From the NCBI GenBank assembly GCA_007745835.1, contig CP036424.1, positions 2,255,001 to 2,319,000 of the forward strand: DNA of 64,000 nucleotides. Reading direction: 5' to 3'. Under the pieces are notes generated by a model. It was not told the DNA's origin, did not search any database, and saw only the letters and a program-made list of their open reading frames with translations. The stretch is from Planctomycetes bacterium MalM25. GTDB lineage: Bacteria > Planctomycetota > Planctomycetia > Pirellulales > Lacipirellulaceae. The first letter of the stretch is position 1, and the number at the start of each line of letters is the position of its first letter. A program made the position numbers and the translations under genes. This document shows positions 47,678-58,793 of the stretch, in pieces.

Positions 47678-48775
47678 ATGAAGACTCTTGTCACCCGTTC
47701 AGCATTCGCTGCCGCCGCGTTGCTCGCGGCGACTGTTCCAGCGTCTGCCCAGCTCTGCGGCGTTTCGCTCGATTGTGATTGGCCCGTCCCCGATGTCGGC
47801 TACTGGGCCTTCGACGAGACTTCGGGCGAGACGGCGAGCGACTCGATTAACAGCAACGACGCAATCTGGCAGGGGGGCGCTGGCAACAATGCCTGGGTCG
47901 GCGGCCTCATCAACGGCGCCGCTCAGATGAATGACGAGAACGGCGGCAACGGCCAAGAGCACTTCGACATCGCCACGATGTCGCAGCTCTCGGGCGCAAC
48001 GGGCCTCAGCATCTCGCTCTGGTTCAACCAGAACGTCGAAACGAACAACAACTCGACGTACAACGGCCTCTTCATGAGCCGAACGCTCACCTCGTCGTTC
48101 GGCGGCGGTAGCGAGAACTGGGGCATCGCCCTGGAGAACAACAACAGTCCCCGCCACATCGACTGGCGTATCGACGGAGTCCCCGGGGCCGAAGACGACC
48201 TCATCCTTGGTAATAACCAGGACCGTTGGGATCACGTCGTCTTCACTTGGGACGGCACCGATCAGGGGGACGGCATGGGCGAACGAGCCTTGTTCCTGAA
48301 CGGAGCCGAGCTTCAGCGAGAGGACGCCCCGTTGGGATCGATCACCTCCAGCGGTGACTTCGACATCGGAAACGACTCTTGCTGCGGTTCGCGTGAGTTC
48401 ACGGGCACGCTCGACGAGGCCGGAGTCTGGTCCTCGGCACTCAGCGCCACAGATGTCTCGCAGATCTACAACGCCGGGATGTCGGCGATCACCCTCGACA
48501 AGGTCGAGCCCGCGCTATTGGGCGATACCGACGAGGACGGAGACGTCGACCTCGACGATGTGACCCCCATCAACTCCAACTTCTTCCAGTCGGTAGCGAC
48601 CCGCGCCGAGGGCGACCTGAACTCCGACGGAGTCGTCGACTGGATCGACTTCGCCCAATGGAAAGAGAATTTCCCGACCAATGTCTCCAGCACCACGTCG
48701 ACGGTTCCCGAACCGACCGGCGCTCTCCTCCTCGCTCTAGGCCTCACCGCTGTGGCGACGCGTTCGCGTCGCTAG
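47678..48775 (+). CDS. LamG-domain dockerin-like / PEP-CTERM protein (365 aa)
   Basis: With the ATG at 47678, 11 bp after an AGGAAAA, the product has 365 residues. The signal peptide (LVTRSAFAAAALLAATVPAS) is followed by a concanavalin-like LamG fold (VGYWAFDETSGETASDSIN, LSISLWFNQNVE, WDHVVFTWDG, FTGTLDEAGVWSSALSATDV). A two-loop dockerin-like cassette follows (GDTDEDGDVDLDDVTPINSN, GDLNSDGVVDWIDFAQWKEN), then the PEP-CTERM signal VPEPTGALLLALGLTAVATR. LamG folds bind polysaccharides or proteins. It precedes a longer protein with the same LamG start, probably a duplication. Confidence 0.87.
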   Translation: MKTLVTRSAFAAAALLAATVPASAQLCGVSLDCDWPVPDVGYWAFDETSGETASDSINSNDAIWQGGAGNNAWVGGLINGAAQMNDENGGNGQEHFDIATMSQLSGATGLSISLWFNQNVETNNNSTYNGLFMSRTLTSSFGGGSENWGIALENNNSPRHIDWRIDGVPGAEDDLILGNNQDRWDHVVFTWDGTDQGDGMGERALFLNGAELQREDAPLGSITSSGDFDIGNDSCCGSREFTGTLDEAGVWSSALSATDVSQIYNAGMSAITLDKVEPALLGDTDEDGDVDLDDVTPINSNFFQSVATRAEGDLNSDGVVDWIDFAQWKENFPTNVSSTTSTVPEPTGALLLALGLTAVATRSRR

Positions 48776-48854: not shown

Positions 48855-51056
48855 ATGAACCTAAACATGAAAACACTGACCTTCGCGGCCGCGCTGCCGG
48901 CCATGGCTCTCGCCACCGCCCTGGCGACGGCGCAGACGCCGATAGCCTACTACAACTTCAACGAGCCGGTCGGCTCGGCCACCCTGGCCGACAGCAACCT
49001 CAACGGCGGGTCGGCGTTCGACGCCACCTACCAAGGGGGCGGCACGGCCTCGTACGGCGAAGGCGTTCTGCAGGGCGCTTGGCGCGGAACCGGCGCGGTA
49101 GGCGACTACTTCCGCACCTCCGACATCACCGAGCTCAGCGGGATCATCGATCTCTCGATCTCGGTCTGGGTGAACCCGTCACGCGATGCGGGCTTCGACG
49201 GCATCTTCACGGCGCGTGGGGCCGAAACGAATCTCGGCAACATGGACAATCCCGCATCGGGTAACTGGGGCCTCAATCACCAGGGTGGCAATCGGATCGA
49301 CGCCCGTGTTCAGAGCGGACCGACCAGCAGTGCGGGAACCGACACCCCGATCGACTCGTTGCCAATCGACACCTGGACTCACGTTGCCTACGCCTACGAC
49401 TCGTTCGATGGTGAAATCGATGTCTACCTGAACGGAGTCCTGTCGGTGAACGGTACCGGCCAGCCCATCGACACCGATTGGGTTACCGGTGGTCCGTGGT
49501 CGATCGGCAATGACGGCACCACCGCTGGTCGCGAGTTCGGTGGCTTGATCGACGATTTGGCTATTTACGACACGCTTCTGTCGCCCGGCCAGATCTCCAC
49601 GATCTACAACAACGGACTCGCTGGGATGGCGATCGACGGCATTTCGAACCCGGTCGCGGGTGATGTCGATGGGAACGGCCTCGTTGAGGCCTTCGTTCCC
49701 GGCGCCGGCAATGACGATTACGATCCCATCATCGACAACTTCCTGGACGACGTCACCGGTTCGGGCGACACCCGTCCCTTCGGCGACCTGACCAACGACG
49801 GCGTCGTCAACTTGGCCGATTTCCGCGCCTTCAAGGACGCGAACTCCCCTTCGTCCGCAAACGGCTCGACCGTCCCCGAGCCCACCTCGGCCGCCCTCGT
49901 AGCGTTGTTGCTCGGCGGGGCGTTCGCGTTGCGTCGTGCGGCCAAGCCGTTGGCCGCAGCGGCCCTGCTGGTCACGGTGGGCTTTTCGGCCTCGGCCGAA
50001 GCCCAGGTGGTCGCTAGCGTGAATCAGGAGACGGGCGTGATCACGGTCGCCAACAATGGTGACACCGACGTCCTATTCGATGGCTACTCCTTCCAGTCGA
50101 CGAACCAATTGCTCGACCCGGTCGGTTGGTCTGGCTTCGAAGAGAACTCAGTTCCAGGTTGGGACGCCTTCGGGCCGTCCAACGCGGGGCAGTTCGGTGA
50201 GCAACTCCTCAGCGCCGGAGCGTCAGCGGTAGTTCCGATGTCACCGGCCTCCGTCGATCTGGGCTCGGCCTTCGATCCCGCGGCCGTGATCACGGCTCAG
50301 CAAGCCGCCGGCCTGGGTGTGGAAGTGCGGGACCTCAGTTTCCTGTTTCGCGAGCCGGGCAACGACGATGCGACCACCGGAACGGTTGAGTACATCGGAG
50401 AGACCGTTACGAACAACCTGGTGATCAAGATCGCCAGTGACGGCACCGCTTCGCTCGAGAACGAATCCCCGTTCACCTTTTCAATCGACGGCTTCGCGAT
50501 CACCTCAACAGGTGGCGCCCTCAATGCTTCGTGGGCCGGCAGCCCCGACCTGCCGCTCAGCAACGCGGCCTGGCAGTTGGGGAGCCCCTCAGTCAATGGC
50601 CTGGGGCAAGTCAGCTTGAACTCAAGTGAATCTCTCGACGCGGCCGTCGCCGGCGTGGTCCAGGCGGGCGGCACAATCGATCTGGGGGACATCTTTGTCC
50701 CGGGTGGCGCCAACGATCTCGAATTCCGCTTCTTGCGGGTCGGCGAGGACGATGGTGAGGGCTTCTTGGGCGTTGTTGAGTACGACCTGAGCCTCACGCC
50801 GCTCAACGGCGATTACAACGGCGACGGCATCGTCAACGCCGCCGACTACACCGTCTGGCGTGACAACAACGGCACCAACAACGTCCTGCCGAACGATCAG
50901 ACGCCCGGCGTCGTCGATGCGTCCGACTACACCGACTGGGCGGACAACTACGGAGCCACCAACCTGTCGCCTGCTTCGGCGGCGGCGGTTCCCGAGCCCA
51001 CCGCCTGCCTGCTCGCTGCGTACGGCTTACTGGTTGCGGTCAAGTTTCGACGCTAA
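48855..51056 (+). CDS. tandem fusion of two PEP-CTERM proteins (733 aa)
   Basis: Residues 1-365 are a complete LamG/PEP-CTERM protein: signal peptide, LamG fold (AYYNFNEPVGSATLADSN), dockerin-like cassette (GDLTNDGVVNLADFRAFKDA), and VPEPTSAALVALLLGGAFALRR (340-361). Without a stop or a new ATG the frame continues as AAKPLAAAALLVTVGFSAS/AEAQ (to about 384), which reads as a second signal peptide. A second secreted domain follows, with a dockerin-like cassette ([20 protein letters not shown]) and a terminal PEP-CTERM (VPEPTACLLAAYGLLVAVKF). An in-frame TTG at 49929 could alternatively start the second half separately. The start could also be the ATG at 48867. The functions of the two halves are unknown. 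Confidence 0.82.
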   Translation: MNLNMKTLTFAAALPAMALATALATAQTPIAYYNFNEPVGSATLADSNLNGGSAFDATYQGGGTASYGEGVLQGAWRGTGAVGDYFRTSDITELSGIIDLSISVWVNPSRDAGFDGIFTARGAETNLGNMDNPASGNWGLNHQGGNRIDARVQSGPTSSAGTDTPIDSLPIDTWTHVAYAYDSFDGEIDVYLNGVLSVNGTGQPIDTDWVTGGPWSIGNDGTTAGREFGGLIDDLAIYDTLLSPGQISTIYNNGLAGMAIDGISNPVAGDVDGNGLVEAFVPGAGNDDYDPIIDNFLDDVTGSGDTRPFGDLTNDGVVNLADFRAFKDANSPSSANGSTVPEPTSAALVALLLGGAFALRRAAKPLAAAALLVTVGFSASAEAQVVASVNQETGVITVANNGDTDVLFDGYSFQSTNQLLDPVGWSGFEENSVPGWDAFGPSNAGQFGEQLLSAGASAVVPMSPASVDLGSAFDPAAVITAQQAAGLGVEVRDLSFLFREPGNDDATTGTVEYIGETVTNNLVIKIASDGTASLENESPFTFSIDGFAITSTGGALNASWAGSPDLPLSNAAWQLGSPSVNGLGQVSLNSSESLDAAVAGVVQAGGTIDLGDIFVPGGANDLEFRFLRVGEDDGEGFLGVVEYDLSLTPLNGDYNGDGIVNAADYTVWRDNNGTNNVLPNDQTPGVVDASDYTDWADNYGATNLSPASAAAVPEPTACLLAAYGLLVAVKFRR

Positions 51057-51145: not shown

Positions 51146-51613
51146 ATGACGAATCGTCTAGCTAATTCAATCCGTTTCAGCATGCCTTACGGTTCGCTGA
51201 TGGTGCTTGCAGCAACCACTCTGATTGCTGGTTGCAACGACAGCGGTCTAAGGCAGGTTGAAGGTGTCGTGACCATCGCGGGTGAACCTCTCACGACCGG
51301 CCGCATTGAGTTCGTCCCTGAAGTCGGACGTCGCGCGACCGGCAACATTCAGAGCAACGGCTCCTTTAAGCTGATGACCTTCAAGCCGGGGGATGGAGCC
51401 AAAATCGGTGATTACAAGGTGCTGATCGAAGCGGTTGAGACCGAAGGACAGCAAAAAATGGGGACGTCGATATTCGATGAGCCGAGCGTCGATCCCAGCT
51501 CTTTTAAGAGGCGAACACTGGTTCACCCCAGATATGGATCACTAGCGTCATCGCCGCTGGTCGCGACCGTCAAGAGCAGTGGCAATCAGATCAACTTCGA
51601 ACTCGAACAATAG
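51146..51613 (+). CDS. lipoprotein, carboxypeptidase-regulatory-like (155 aa)
   Basis: A secretion signal leads to the lipobox LIAGC with lipidated Cys30. The rest is a single beta-sandwich of the carboxypeptidase-regulatory type: RQVEGVVTIAGEPLTTGRIE, FVPEVGRRATGNIQSNGSFK and GDYKVLIEAVE. In planctomycetes genes of this kind regularly stand just before or after a DUF1559 gene, as here (30 bp before it). No enzymatic residues are apparent; a structural or binding role at the membrane surface is likely. Confidence 0.85.
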   Translation: MTNRLANSIRFSMPYGSLMVLAATTLIAGCNDSGLRQVEGVVTIAGEPLTTGRIEFVPEVGRRATGNIQSNGSFKLMTFKPGDGAKIGDYKVLIEAVETEGQQKMGTSIFDEPSVDPSSFKRRTLVHPRYGSLASSPLVATVKSSGNQINFELEQ

Positions 51614-51642: not shown

Positions 51643-52749
51643 ATGGCTGCAAGTACTCACTCTAGGATCGCTCGCTGCGGCAAGGGTTTCACACTTGTCG
51701 AGTTGCTCGTAGTGATCGCGATCATCGGAATCCTAGTCGCTCTACTCTTGCCGGCCGTGCAGGCGGCTCGTGAAGCGGCGCGTCGCAGTTCGTGTGTCAA
51801 CAATCTGAAGCAGGCGGGGCTCTCGCTCGCGAACTACGAGTCGGCTAGGGGGGAGTTGCCGCCTGGCGCCACGGCCGAAGAAATCGACTGTGCGAAAACT
51901 GACACGGACGGACTCTACCGTGAGGATTGCCGTGGGCTCAGCATGTACATACTGCTGTTCCCATATATTGAGGACCAAGCGTTCAAGGATCAAATACAAG
52001 AGATACTCGATGAGAGAACGACAAACCGCTGGGGTTGGACTTACTTCATCGGGCGACTGGTCAACGATCTCGAACTACGGGTAAGCATCCCCAGCTTTCA
52101 GTGTCCGAGCGTCAGCGACGAGCTCAACTTCCCAGAGCGGATCGATTATTTCGGCATCTCGGGAGGTCGAGAGAATGACGATGAGTTGGCCAATGCGTCA
52201 AATACAGACCGTCGAAAGTTGATACAGCCTCGAACACAGAATGGTCGTGGGCATGTCTACTCCGACGGCCTCTTCTTCTGGTTAGACCCAGTCAGTCTGC
52301 GACAGATCACGGATGGCACCTCGCACACCATGGCAATCGGTGAGAGTGTCCACTGGTCGGTAGCCGGGGGTCCTCCTGTCGGTAATTACCCCGGGTATGG
52401 AGTTGTTGGAGTTGGTGGGCCTTCAGCTTGGTATTTCGGCGGCGGAGGTAGTCTCAACGCCAACTACGCTGACAGGAGGACACTGGGGGGGAACTCTACC
52501 GGACGTCCCCTCCGCACCACGCACTGGCCCATCAACTACCCGCTTGATGAGGTTTGGGTTGAGAAATGTGGCACAAATTCAGACTGCGCACTTGAAGAAG
52601 ACATGGACGGTCCTCTGGGTAGCAACCACCCGGGGGGCGCCCAAGTCGTCTTTGCTGATGGGCACGTCGAGTTCCTCCAAGAAGACATCGATGAGTACGT
52701 CTACAAGTCTCTCGCTACGCGAGCGGGCGGTGAGGTGGTTGAACGATGA
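51643..52749 (+). CDS. DUF1559 prepilin-like protein
   Basis: A 368-residue protein with the canonical prepilin leader GKGFTLVELLVVIAIIGILV (Gly15|Phe16, Glu20 at +5) and the DUF1559 opening PAVQAAREAARRSSCVNNLK. The middle has NYESARGELPPGATAEE, FQCPSVSDE and DGTSHTMAIGESVHW. It ends with NHPGGAQVVFADGHVEFLQ and LATRAGGEV. Compared with the DUF1559 protein at 17461 it has the usual Gly at the cleavage site. It is co-oriented with and 30 bp behind the lipoprotein gene. A terminator follows at 52820. Confidence 0.94.
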   Translation: MAASTHSRIARCGKGFTLVELLVVIAIIGILVALLLPAVQAAREAARRSSCVNNLKQAGLSLANYESARGELPPGATAEEIDCAKTDTDGLYREDCRGLSMYILLFPYIEDQAFKDQIQEILDERTTNRWGWTYFIGRLVNDLELRVSIPSFQCPSVSDELNFPERIDYFGISGGRENDDELANASNTDRRKLIQPRTQNGRGHVYSDGLFFWLDPVSLRQITDGTSHTMAIGESVHWSVAGGPPVGNYPGYGVVGVGGPSAWYFGGGGSLNANYADRRTLGGNSTGRPLRTTHWPINYPLDEVWVEKCGTNSDCALEEDMDGPLGSNHPGGAQVVFADGHVEFLQEDIDEYVYKSLATRAGGEVVER

Positions 52750-52856: not shown

Positions 52857-53000
52857 ATTGGCATGAATCCACGTCCAGTGTGAACATAGAGACAGAGAGC
52901 CCCGGCAGTCCTTCCTAGCTTGAGAGGAGGCGTCGGTTGGCTCTCTGCGTTGGGCGTGCGTCAACGCTCACACGGAACTCGAGATAGGCAAGGCATCGAT

Positions 53001-56000
53001 ATGAACTTCCCGACACCCCCATGGGGTCGCGGCCCGAGCCGTCGCGCCAAGGCGCGTCCTTCCAACTCGGCCGCCCGCCGTGTGGAGGCGCTCGAGCGTC
53101 GCGAGATGCTCACCGATTTCTACGTCTCCGCGGCGGACGGGGCGAACTTCCCGAACGACGGGTCGTTCGACGAACCGTTCCAGACCATCGGCCGCGCCGT
53201 TCAGTTCGCGCAGGCCGGCGACACGGTTTATATCCACGAGGGGGTCTACCGCGAGCAGGTGAACCTCACCCGGTCGGGCTTCGATGGCAGCCCGATCACC
53301 TTCAAGCCTTACAGCAACGAGAGCGTCGTCGTCTCGGGCGGGGATCTAGTCACCGGGTGGACCAACCAAGGGGGCGATGTTTGGACGGCTACCGCCAATT
53401 GGGACGCGGACGGCGACAGGGACAACAACACGCTCTTCGTTGATGGGGAGCTCAAGTACGAGGCAAAGCAGTTCGCCGAGAACGACCCGCTCGACATCGA
53501 CGACTGGGGCCGCTTGAAGCAGGGCCGCCTCTCCAGCAACGCCAGCAGTTTCACGGTGGACGACCTCGGTGGTTTTCCCGACGACAAGTGGAACGGGGCG
53601 AAGATCAAGTTCCATGTCAACGACTGGACTCTGGTGACCCGGACGATCACCGATTTCGACGCCGGGTCGGGGACCATCTCCCTCGACAGCCCGGTCGGGA
53701 TTGTTTCCCAGAAGCAAGAGAACGGCTACTTCATCTACGACACGCTCGAAGCGCTCGATCAGCCGGGAGAGTGGTACAAGGCGGACGGCTCGAGCACGCT
53801 CTATTACTACGCGGAGCCGGGGCAGGACCCCAACGACCTCGACATCGAGTTCAAACGTCGCGAGTACGGGTTCAACCTGAACAGCCGAGACCACATCCAC
53901 ATCGAAGGGATCGAGTTCCGCGGAGTGAGCCTCGACACGAATTCGGGTACCGACAACAACGTGATCGGCGGCAACCGTTTCCATGGATACGATAAAGGCG
54001 ATTACGGTCGCTTCATTCTGGAGGGCTCCGGCAACGTCATCCGCGACAACGAATTCAGCCACACCTGGGGTTCGGTCGCGACAATCAACGGCTCCGGGCA
54101 TCAGATCGTCAACAACTACCTCCACGACATCGGATTCCGTGGCGCCTCGCGGGTGGTCTCGGCGAGCGGAGCCGTTGAGATCCTCGTAAGCCACAACACG
54201 GTCAGCACGTTTGCGCGTAGCTTCATGGATGGCTACCCAACGCGGAGCGAGATCGCCTACAACGTCTTTGAAGACGGCGGGAACTTATCCTGGGACACCG
54301 GCGTGTTTGACGCCGACGGTGGAAACGGCGACTCGAGCTACTCCATCTTCCATCACAATGTCTTCCGCGACACGGATACCCGTGGGATCTTTGAGGCCTT
54401 CTACGGGCGCAATAGCAACGCCGTCGTCCACCACAACCTGTTCTACGACTTCGATGGCAACGGGCGGACGGTCCTCCGCTCGTACGGCCTCGATTTCCGC
54501 CAGGCGTTTCACAACACGGTCATCTCGTCGGTCTCTGGCGCGCCTTCGGGATCGCTCGAGGCGCGTGAGGCGATCCAGACGCGTTACAACAACAACGTGC
54601 AGATCACCGCCGAGGACATCGAGGCGCTCGGCGTCGATAGCCGTGGCAACCACGACTACATCCCGAGCGATTTCGTCGATTTCGCGGGCAAAGATTTCCG
54701 CCTCGCCCCGGGCTCGGACGCGATTGATTCGGGGATCGTTATCCCGGGCATCAACGACGGCTACCTCGGCGCCGCGCCCGACGCGGGCGCCTTCGAGTCC
54801 GGCCAGGCAGCGTGGGAAGCCGGGCATGACTTCGCGAACCCGCCCAACCCGGTCTACTCGTGGGTTGCGCTGCCGGGCACGAACCTCTTCGACAACGTCC
54901 AATTCCAGGAGGGGATCGTCGACTGGAGCGTCACCTCGGGGTCGCCCGTCTCGAGCGACCGCAACTCGTGGAACCTGCAGGCTTCGGGCGCTCCGCTGAC
55001 CGGCACCTTCCGCACCCAGAGCGTCGAATTCACGCCTGGTGAGGGGATGGAGCGGACCTTCACGGGGCTGACCCCCGGAGCCACCTACACGATCGGCGTT
55101 GGGGTCCGCCTCGCGGATCGACTCGGGGACGCGGACGATTTCAACGGCTCGTCGGGAACGATCTCCACGGGCGAGCACCGCGACGAACGGTACGTAAGCG
55201 GCCTCACCGCGGGAGAGTGGGTCCGTTACGACAACGTTAACTTCGGCGACCCGGGGCAGTACGACCTGCTCGACCTGCTGCACATCCGCGACCCGAGTGA
55301 TTTCAACCAGTCGCTCGACGGGGTGAGCGTTCAGGTCCGCTTGGATGACCCTGCGGGCACGTTGATCGCCGAGTTCGACGACCTACTCGACGGAAACACC
55401 AAGGATCGCTGGCGGGCCGATCGTGAAGCGATCGCTGGCATTTCAGGACAGCACTCGATTTACGTCTCGGTGTCGGGCGCTAACGCGGCGAACCTTGCCC
55501 TGGGGAGCTTTCGCCTGCTCAGCAGCGCTCCGGTGGCAGACGACCTGCTCACGATCAAGGTGGAGTCCGCCGGCGTGGAGCGGGTGTCTGCCCGAGTCGG
55601 CTTGGAGGACTGGGACTACGGTTACGAGGAGATCGTCTTCCAGACCGGCCCGGCGGCTACCGAGGCGACGATCTCCTTCGCCAACAACGGCCGGCTGGAC
55701 GCCTACCTCGACCGGCTTTACCTGATCGAAGGGCACAGCACACGCGGCGCTGAACCCCAAGAGCTGGCCGGTGGCGCCGCGGCGCACGGTTCGCTGAACT
55801 CGACGCTCCGAGCCGCGACGCCTGAGCTTACGGACGGTTCGCTCGCGACCGAGGCGGTCTCGGGAGATCACGCCGGCGCTTGGCTCCAGGTCGACCTCGG
55901 CGATACCGAAGCGCTCTACGGCCTCCAACTCATCACCACAGCCAGCCAGCCGGACCGGCTGAGCAACTTCCGCGTCACGGTCTGGTCGGCCGATCCGGAC

Positions 56001-58793
56001 CAGGGGGGAACCGAACTTTGGAGCCAAGACTACCTGACCGACAGTCAAGCTCTTGGCGCCAACGAGTCGCTCTTTATCCAAGCGGACGCGGAGGGGCGCG
56101 ACGGGGCCACTGAACTGGGCGACGTGCGAGGGCGGTACATCCGGGTCGAGTCGCTCGGCCTCAATGCGGCGGGTGACCAACGTGTCGCGCTCAGCGAGTT
56201 GCGTGTGCTCGGTTTCGACCTCAACAACCTCGCCACCACCGACGGCCTGGCGACCCAGTCCACGGACTGGAACGGGCAATCCGCCGATCTCGCTAACGAC
56301 GGCGACGACGCCACCGCCTCGGCGACCGACCCGGGTGCGCACAACAGCTGGTGGCAGACCGCTTTCGCTCAACCACTGAGCATCGGCCAGATTGAGCTGC
56401 AGAATGTCGATGCCTCGACGTACGGCGAGCTGAGCAATTTTACGGTCTCGGTGTGGGACGAGGACCCCGCCGATGGCGGGACGAAGCTTTGGGAGAAATC
56501 CTTCCTGTCGACTGGCAGCGTGGGCAGAGGCCAGACCCTCGTGATCGACGGCAGCGAAGTCTCCGATACCTCGACCCGCCGCTTGGCCACGGTGCACACG
56601 GGCAGTGTGGTCCGTGTTCAGCTGAACGGCGCCAACAACGAGGGCAACGGACGCCTCTCGCTGGCGGGGGTCCGTGTCGCCGCGGGCGACGCCATTACGC
56701 CGATCAATAACCTCGCTCAGCAGGGGGCCGCCGATCAGCGGCGTGATTTCTATGGCGACGCGGGCTTCAACGCCTCGAACGGCTTCGCCGTTGACGCCAA
56801 CGATGGGCTGATCTTCCCGGAGTCGAACTTCACTTCCACGCTCAGCGAATCCGGAACGTGGTGGCAGGTCGATCTCCAGGAAACGAGCGACATCGATCAG
56901 ATCGTCCTTTATAACCGGACCGACGCGGCGAACCGGCTGAACAACTTCCGCGTCACGGTCTGGGACGACGACCCGGACAGCGGCGGTTCCGAGCTGTGGG
57001 GCCGCACCTACTTCTATTCGGACTCGGCCTCGACCTACTCGACCGGATCGACCATCGGAGCGGGGGGGGCGTTGATCATCGACGGATCCGACACCGACGG
57101 TGGCCTGCGCCTGGATAACGTGAGCGGCGGCAAGTACGTGCGGGTTCAGCTCCTCGGAACCAACATCCTGTCACTCGCGGAGGTCCAAGTCTGGGCGCCC
57201 AATTCGGTGCTCAGGACCAGCCCATTCGCAACCGACTTCAGCTACGACCTGGGCACGGAGTCCTCTCCTGTCGAGCCGGGAGCGACTCGCGTTAGCCCCT
57301 CCACCTACGGCGATGCCTGGTGGACCGGCGAAGTCGACGCGGCGGATCGCGGCGGCTCGGGGACGGCACGCGACTTCGTTGAAGGCTACGGTCCGGCGAC
57401 CCTCAATCACACCCTGCCGAACGGCTACTACCGCGTGACCGCGCAGTTCGGGGATTCGTCGGTGGCCCGGCCGGATATGAGCCTGTGGGCCGAGGGGGGG
57501 CTGATCTCCGACGGCATCGACGCCACCACCGCCGGCGTCACCGAGGTCGCTTTCGACGTCACGGTCGATGACGGCGAGCTCAACCTGGCGCTGGACGGCC
57601 CGGTGAACACGGGCTGGGCGCTCAGCAGACTCGTCATCGAAGAGCAGACTCCTGTCGTGACGCTGGCTGGCGACTACAACGACGACGGTGTCGTTGACGC
57701 GGCCGATTACACCGTGTGGCGCGACGCGGAAGGGACCAGCACGTTCCTGCCCAACGACGCCACTCCGAACGTCGTTGATCAGAGCGATTGGCAAGTGTGG
57801 CGTGACAACTACGGCGCCGCGTTGCCCGTGAGCGTGACCACGGTGCTGATCGACGCCACGGCCGGCAACGGGGAGTTCGAGATCGACAACCCGGCGGCCA
57901 TCTCGGCGACCGGAGGGGGCGGCGACCCCCTCTCGATCGATGTCAATCGCGACCGAGCTTTCCGCAGCACGTCCGGCATCAACCGCGGCCTCTCCGTGCC
58001 GGGCTGGACCAGCACGCGGACCGGTTACTCGGGGGGCAACGCCGCACTCGGGTTCGACGGCAACTACGGTTTCGCGATCGACGCGGGCACGCTCCCGGGG
58101 GAAACCGGTCAGGCCTTCGTGAATAGCGGGACCGTCGATCTTGAGTCGGACCCGATCGCGCACGCCTTCCAAGCGGGTGATGTGATCGATCTGTCGTACC
58201 TGCTAGGCACCGACGCCTCCGGGGCGCCAACCGTCGATGCGGACGTCGAGTTGCGGTTCAATGAGGGCCTGCCCTCCGCCTTCACCCACACGTTCGCAAC
58301 ACGATCGGGAACCGGTTTGGTGACCCCCGCGATCACCGAGCAGTACAACTTGCCGATGGCGGCACAGAGTCTCCGCCTTGTCTTTTCGCTCGACGGTCGT
58401 TCGGTCGGTGTGCGGACGCTGGTCGATGATGTCGAACTGTCGGTCACCGGCCCCGCGGCGAGCTCCGCCAGCTCGGTCTCGTTCGCGTTCGTCGAAAGCC
58501 CTCCGGTCGAGGCGGGGAACAACCTGGAAGATGCCCCGGCGGATGACCTCATTGCGATGATCGCCCTCGGGGCGTCGCCGTTAGGCACGCCCGCGTCCAG
58601 CTCACCGAGCCTCGGTCCGGACGCTGCCGACGGGTCGGCGAGCGACGACCTCTTACTGCTGGCTGCTGACGTCGCTCTCTCCTGGAGCGATTCGGAGGGA
58701 GATACGGCCTTCGAGGCGGTGACTGAGGAGGACGCACGGGACGAGAAGGACCCGCAAGAGGAAGCGGTCGCCCGTTCGGTGCTGGCTTTCTGA
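53001..58793 (+). CDS. giant secreted beta-helix / discoidin / dockerin-like protein (1930 aa)
   Basis: The ATG at 53001 is the sensible start; [13 protein letters not shown] at 26-38 is the planctomycete LExRxLL motif. The DUF1565-type beta-helix (about 38-585) begins [20 protein letters not shown] and has right-handed coil repeats. It resembles the beta-helix protein at 29239. After a linker with CBM-like modules come three F5/8 (discoidin-like) repeats (about 924-1071, 1075-1230, 1236-1398; for example [10 protein letters not shown]), a malectin-like module (about 1404-1550), a dockerin-like cassette (from 1556, [20 protein letters not shown]) and an unassigned module (about 1613-1830) shared with the protein at 61224. 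The tail is acidic and ends SVLAF. It probably acts on, or holds, a polysaccharide outside the cell. Confidence 0.85.

Follow-up and report, generated by a model that had tools for sequence, protein, structure and literature searches.

Two PEP-CTERM surface proteins of Planctomycetes bacterium MalM25 are encoded head to tail in one reading frame, with a complete sorting signal and a new signal peptide between them, and joins of the same order recur in other genomes. The frame lies on the forward strand of the 64,000-nucleotide stretch that we analysed (the window), in a genome consisting of a single contig of 4.72 Mb. It spans 48855-51056 (733 aa plus a stop), is open from an ATG at 48855 to a TAA at 51054-51056, and encodes a LamG PEP-CTERM protein that leads straight into a signal peptide and another PEP-CTERM protein, the junction having neither spacer nor ATG; the in-frame read-through of two PEP-CTERM halves that an earlier note on this DNA had claimed is thus real. 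Judging from the sequences, we consider it rather probable that this frame and others like it are secretory polyproteins, in which each hairpin between modules would be cut by exosortase on one side and by signal peptidase on the other.

The first module (module A) begins with an N-terminal signal peptide, recognised by inspection (approximately residues 1-26, 48855-48932), followed by a LamG/ConA-like domain (PF13385, residues 83-248, 49101-49598, 78.8 bits) and a dockerin-like calcium-loop segment (49656-49850) that is apparent from its motif only and was not called by Pfam. It ends in a PEP-CTERM signal with VPEP, a hydrophobic helix and RR (V340-R361, 49872-49937), which carries the putative exosortase site. 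That this internal signal is complete, as the earlier note had it, is borne out by the profiles: it fits the pattern of a PEP motif, a hydrophobic helix of about 14 residues and a basic cluster, and it exceeds the curated cut-offs of both PF07589 (22.3 bits, cut-off 20.7) and TIGR02595 (20.4 bits, cut-off 16). A further 372 residues follow it in the window protein. The sequence past the internal PEP-CTERM reads RRAAKPLAAAALLVTVGFSASAEA|QVVASVN, and the terminal basic residues (RR) of the PEP-CTERM double as the positively charged beginning of the second signal peptide. By inspection this peptide (approximately residues 360-383, 49932-50003) has the features of a Sec signal, namely a basic start, a hydrophobic core and an AxA-type site, in the order RRAAKP-LAAAALLVTVGF-SASAEA|Q, with a predicted signal peptidase cut before Q384 (AEA|Q, 50003/50004).

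Module B (residues 384-640, 50004-50774) has homologues in 29 of the 97 genomes searched, its own genome counted, and no Pfam family above cut-off. Both of its halves match one stretch of L208, and it appears from this to consist of a unit present twice, in divergent copies; the domain is probably beta-rich according to a structure model of low confidence (five-row alignment, mean pLDDT 55.6). Behind it lie a dockerin-like segment (50805-50966), which has many paralogous stretches in the genome and stays below the Pfam cut-off (Dockerin_1, PF00404, 16.6 bits against 22.9), and the terminal PEP-CTERM (VPEPTACLL...KFRR, 50988-51053). The terminal motif, VPEPTACLLAAYGLLVAVKFRR, is recognised as a motif, with an NF038129 tail match below cut-off, and PF07589 gives no match in the second half at a threshold as lax as E<=1; by motif it sits where the placement criterion given in PMC1569441 would have it. 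The second half can therefore be described as a dockerin/PEP-CTERM protein, as the earlier note did, on the strength of motifs and weak matches below cut-off, but not of a Pfam call at cut-off.

The frame is preceded, at a distance of 79 bp, by a separate gene for a LamG PEP-CTERM protein (A1, 47678-48775), a paralogue of the first half of the fusion (37% identity over query residues 11-364). It is followed on the same strand by a small ORF with a lipobox-like LIAGC by inspection (51146-51613; no Pfam or NCBIfam match at E<=0.1) and by a gene for a DUF1559/SBP_bac_10 pilin-like protein (51643-52749, Pfam match). After the latter comes a 1957-aa ORF (52920-58793) whose listed start is a TTG, though the true start may lie downstream of it; by inspection the ORF has a dockerin-like segment in its interior and lacks a terminal PEP-CTERM.

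The gene order A1, A2 (LamG PEP-CTERM), B and a DUF1559-like gene recurs in Aeoliella straminimaris ICT_H6.2 (G023, two loci), G005 and G008 (DUF1559-like by inspection), and a similar-looking DUF1559 pilin-like gene follows B, again by inspection, in L049-L052 and L054. A second G008 locus (L053) has one LamG gene and B, then a different gene. All five related A-B loci read are unfused, with gaps from stop to ATG of 54, 68, 67, 78 and 22 bp, and the two paralogous B genes of the window genome are likewise separate. Relatives had been proposed as a check on the fusion, and they answer it in two ways: the five related loci hold separate genes with stops, while the same architecture is kept fused elsewhere (see below). 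As far as read, then, the A-B fusion in the window is local or lineage-specific. It probably arose when stop, spacer and start were deleted together, the simplest origin given that the spacer and the ATG are both missing at the junction; a search there for a vestigial ATG or intergenic DNA found none. A recent loss of a single stop codon, which the earlier note had listed as a rival explanation, is excluded for this junction since the spacer and the ATG are gone as well, and a single wrong base is excluded because some 20-80 bp and a start codon would be missing. A different history is likely for a frame in A. straminimaris (L049:5228-7303) in which two adjacent LamG PEP-CTERM modules are joined by a 47-residue loop that resembles a translated spacer, with a start-like Met remaining before the signal peptide; judging from this sequence, it is probably a young stop-loss fusion. 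Among the joins surveyed, loops containing a Met have a median length of 17 residues (n=25), against 10 for Met-free loops (n=125).

Further in-frame joins from a PEP-CTERM to a signal peptide were present beside that of the window in the first loci scanned. A model built from nine joins gave, among the matches listed for the 43 family genomes, many that are stop-free and near full length, in frames of approximately 500 to 1658 aa. The first regions and the window together hold 87 joins in 61 frames (36 with two modules, 24 with three, one with four), after one false candidate of the initial 88, a 361-aa frame in L102, was left out. In all, the survey yields 150 joins with this succession of elements (VPEP, helix, basic loop, second hydrophobic stretch), distributed over 82 frames with up to 10 modules each. 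The 31 genomes concerned comprise 23 of the 43 family genomes searched and eight outside the family. A PEP lies within 45 residues of the frame end in 73 of the 82 frames, and the remainder includes frames cut at a contig or region edge. The survey regions were picked with models containing the PEP-CTERM and the signal peptide, so these counts are not rates, and motif and score statistics drawn from them are partly selected. When 149 of the joins were compared they fell into 78 pairing clusters (70 singletons, the window's join among them). In the same regions, an unfused PEP-CTERM gene follows within 400 nt at 47 of 144 PEP-CTERM gene ends, at a median gap of 108 nt.

The window genome has a second case, a three-module frame of 1503 aa (C1:857-860 kb, L103); among the 82 PEP-CTERM matches listed for this genome two were recognised as joins, and one further match proved terminal. 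The longest frame, in L259 (G068), has 10 modules in 2531 aa with its 5' end open at a contig edge, and L260 has eight modules in one frame. The seven-module frame L261:2594-9874 (2427 aa; G086, a genome listed as 98% complete) contains six FGE-sulfatase stretches and mostly near-identical joins, and looks as if an entire module, signals included, had recently been duplicated in tandem. Eleven frames of 681 to 2531 aa, with two to nine internal PEP-CTERM joins each, were seen in L259-L268 (G068, a Pirellulales bin); in the two of them that were scanned for domains, LamG occurs among the modules of both L259 and L260, and discoidin-like domains in L259. With its 710 contigs and 81% completeness G068 is fragmented, but joins are also found in G015, G017, G007 and G028, which have one to six contigs; the last is Lacipirellula limnantheis I41 (NZ_CP036339.1), where L109 holds a frame of two modules and L193 one of three. 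A first module that is phosphatase-like by inspection is joined to LamG and other modules in L087 (G017) and L091 (G004), and in G021 (L090) a homologue of the third module of this G017/G004 protein sits in a separate frame about 1.1 kb downstream.

For the extent of the phenomenon we searched with a 39-row join model at E<=1e-9, counting the own genome in each tally. The model matched 22 of the 43 genomes of the family, 36 of 196 from the order and 8 of 294 from the phylum, some of the matches containing stops or covering the PEP part only. Joins without a stop that span most of the model were present in 19 of the 43 family genomes, in eight order genomes outside the family, and, at phylum level, in three of 294 (the own genome, G173 and G255). 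All of these are lower bounds, as candidates per genome were only partly scored and some known joins fall below the cut.

We suggest that such frames would arise when two neighbouring operon genes for PEP-CTERM surface proteins become joined in frame. In the topology that we infer, the PEP-CTERM helix (outside to inside) would work as a stop-transfer during export, the arginines after it would lie in a loop on the cytoplasmic side, and translocation would resume with the next signal peptide (inside to outside), leaving both mature modules outside. Two cuts would follow, one by exosortase at VPEP and one by signal peptidase I behind AxA, and the hairpin between them would be discarded. The products would be two mature proteins as in the unfused loci, made in a fixed ratio from one start site, and this fixed stoichiometry may be of benefit. 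Because the junction keeps topology and both signals, fusions of this kind can arise and persist. The earlier note had raised the possibility of cleavage of the internal block from both sides; recurrence and conservation favour it and it is the best explanation we have, the cuts themselves being predicted. The window genome encodes an exosortase (PF09721, 151.6 bits at G000:C1:360020-360688). Exosortase profile matches there fall in two adjacent pieces (L142 and L143) of one 515-aa frame (G000:C1:359684-360688), and their profile ranges overlap.

Conservation across the hairpin was followed in one family of joined proteins (NF). In its four closest orthologues, from two genera, the mature parts share 71-73% of their residues, against 40% for the hairpin body and 33% for the terminal tail, and the PEP is retained in 18 of 18 residue comparisons. 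In nine NF sequences, which stem from the model-selected survey, the corresponding values are 48-57%, 34% and 28%, with 100% identity at PEP (108 of 108 residue comparisons). Identity in the AxAQ columns is only 58% and 26% in the two sets, in part through displacement of the cut site within the alignment. We also searched the family with two downstream modules, the NF module and another that we call module-3, with neither signal in the query, and 17 and 48 matches were listed. NF-module genes were joined upstream via PEP-CTERM and signal peptide in 16 of 17 cases, the exception (L190) being a partial match. For module-3, loci were available for 30 of the 48 matches (18 lay outside the sample), and five of these were second pieces of one gene; 20 of the 25 genes examined were joined, and five stood alone with their own start and signal peptide. 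All but one of the joined genes retain the PEP (35 of 36). As the query modules were drawn from joined proteins, this result shows conservation of the joined state but does not make it the default.

The main competitor to excision is that the hairpin is retained, so that the product is one multi-domain protein with an internal two-helix anchor and only the last PEP-CTERM is cut. Under the positive-inside rule a hairpin of helix, basic loop and helix is a stable membrane element, and cleavage at the joins is here a prediction from sequence. A mere anchor, however, would have no need of a PEP that is invariant in the nine NF sequences and nearly so among the fused homologues, and the hairpin body diverges almost as far as the terminal tails, well beyond the mature parts. 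An invariant PEP in a diverging hairpin is what an excised signal would be expected to leave, and we regard retention as rather unlikely.

The make-up of the joins favours the polyprotein reading. A second hydrophobic stretch lies within 70 residues of the PEP in all 150 joins, and the net charge of the loop is at least +2 in all 150 (median +5), although this is partly selected, a basic residue after the helix having been required. Behind the second hydrophobic stretch, 143 joins have an [AVST]xA and seven have none, compared with its presence in 41% of random 20-mers and in 53 of 62 predicted N-terminal signal peptides of the same frames; strict AxA follows in 114 of 150 joins, against 19% of random 20-mers, and this variation in cut-site residues counts against the reading. 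Scored with a model of 70 tails from single genes, internal PEP-CTERMs have a median of 28.8 bits (150 sites) and the terminal ones in these frames 26.0 bits (73 sites), with the qualification that the internal sites had been preselected by models containing the PEP-CTERM. A second competitor is that the internal PEP-CTERMs have decayed and lost their function, as Haft (2006) suggested for examples with long tails. That internal copies score as well as terminal ones, selection bias notwithstanding, speaks against decay, as does the retention of PEP in 35 of 36 fused homologues found with queries that lacked it. On the other side, PMC1569441 reports more sequence variation in atypically placed examples, and the one exception among our fused homologues, a module-3 gene (L172), has PEG in place of PEP. 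Taking these together, we find decay improbable.

A still smaller chance attaches to a second translation start at an in-frame TTG, which would let the frame yield two proteins. The earlier note had pointed to such a codon at 49929; it is indeed there, as L359, where the second signal peptide opens with its basic residues, and within the stretch scanned an ATG, GTG or TTG occurs in 132 of the 150 junctions (ATG in 58). The TTG has no SD-like motif ahead of it, a weak test because none of the six downstream-gene ATGs in the compared loci has one either, and the window junction is without an ATG. Across the survey, SD-like motifs precede 36 of 62 predicted N-terminal ATGs but only 23 of 150 junctions with all start codons considered (5.2% per random position), and ribosomes arriving from upstream would in any case make the fusion. 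The use of the TTG as an alternative start thus receives little support. Least probable of all is an assembly or sequencing error in the window, for which the unfused state of all five related loci might speak, as it would require a clean in-frame loss of about 20-80 bp with stop and ATG in a single-contig genome that holds another joined frame, the three-module ORF in L103, and third-position G+C stays at 0.72-0.90 across the window ORF (150-base steps).

What looks new in the excision reading is that normally separate surface-protein genes are in many cases strung head to tail, joined by an apparently removable double sorting signal. We lean, if only slightly, towards the broader proposition that in the Lacipirellulaceae and some other Pirellulales a part of the exosortase-sorted surface proteome consists of polyproteins of two to at least 10 modules, whose hairpins would be excised by two membrane proteases from opposite sides, setting stoichiometry and release order. 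The joins revise the rule that the PEP-CTERM is a C-terminal signal, and surface proteins will be miscounted if joined ORFs are annotated as single PEP-CTERM proteins. They also suggest a route by which adjacent secreted-protein genes could fuse repeatedly with neither product lost. To our knowledge there is little direct biochemical proof of exosortase cleavage. As natural substrates, the joined frames would allow the cuts of exosortase and of signal peptidase to be read from a single chain, and whether the polyprotein halves separate or not would be a clean assay for the former; L. limnantheis I41, a named strain with a chromosome record, carries such frames.

The joins belong with the PEP-CTERM/exosortase system, as described in PMC1569441 and by PF07589 and TIGR02595, in having the same tripartite signal and, in the window genome, an exosortase gene, but differ from it in the internal position of the signal, behind which a new signal peptide and a new module follow. 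That founding description regards long-tailed PEP-CTERMs as possibly non-functional. In PMC12188702 the role of exosortase in processing is called hypothetical, and an exoproteome result is presented as direct evidence that exosortase may process some PEP-CTERM proteins. A family named midcut-by-XrtH (NF033207) suggests, judged from its name alone, that an exosortase site in mid-protein has already been proposed elsewhere. The present proteins do not belong to it: the window protein is unlisted at E<=0.1, the L261 frame reaches 20 bits against a cut-off of 45, two of 39 joins match at E<=0.1, and none of 29 genomes does, control genomes being silent too. In the open-licence literature searched, we found no description of PEP-CTERM polyproteins of this kind.

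Two more distant systems offer the closest parallels for the mechanism. The cytochrome b/c1 protein FbcH of Bradyrhizobium is a bacterial polyprotein cut at an internal signal peptide, as we propose for the present frames, but it has neither an exosortase signal nor repeated secretory modules. The anchor-signal hairpin between E and NS1 of flaviviruses has the same order of helices, a stop-transfer helix and then a signal helix cut by signal peptidase; it is viral, works in a eukaryotic host and lacks a PEP-CTERM-like cut on the other side. If our reading is correct, the joined PEP-CTERM frames would be a bacterial counterpart of viral polyprotein processing.
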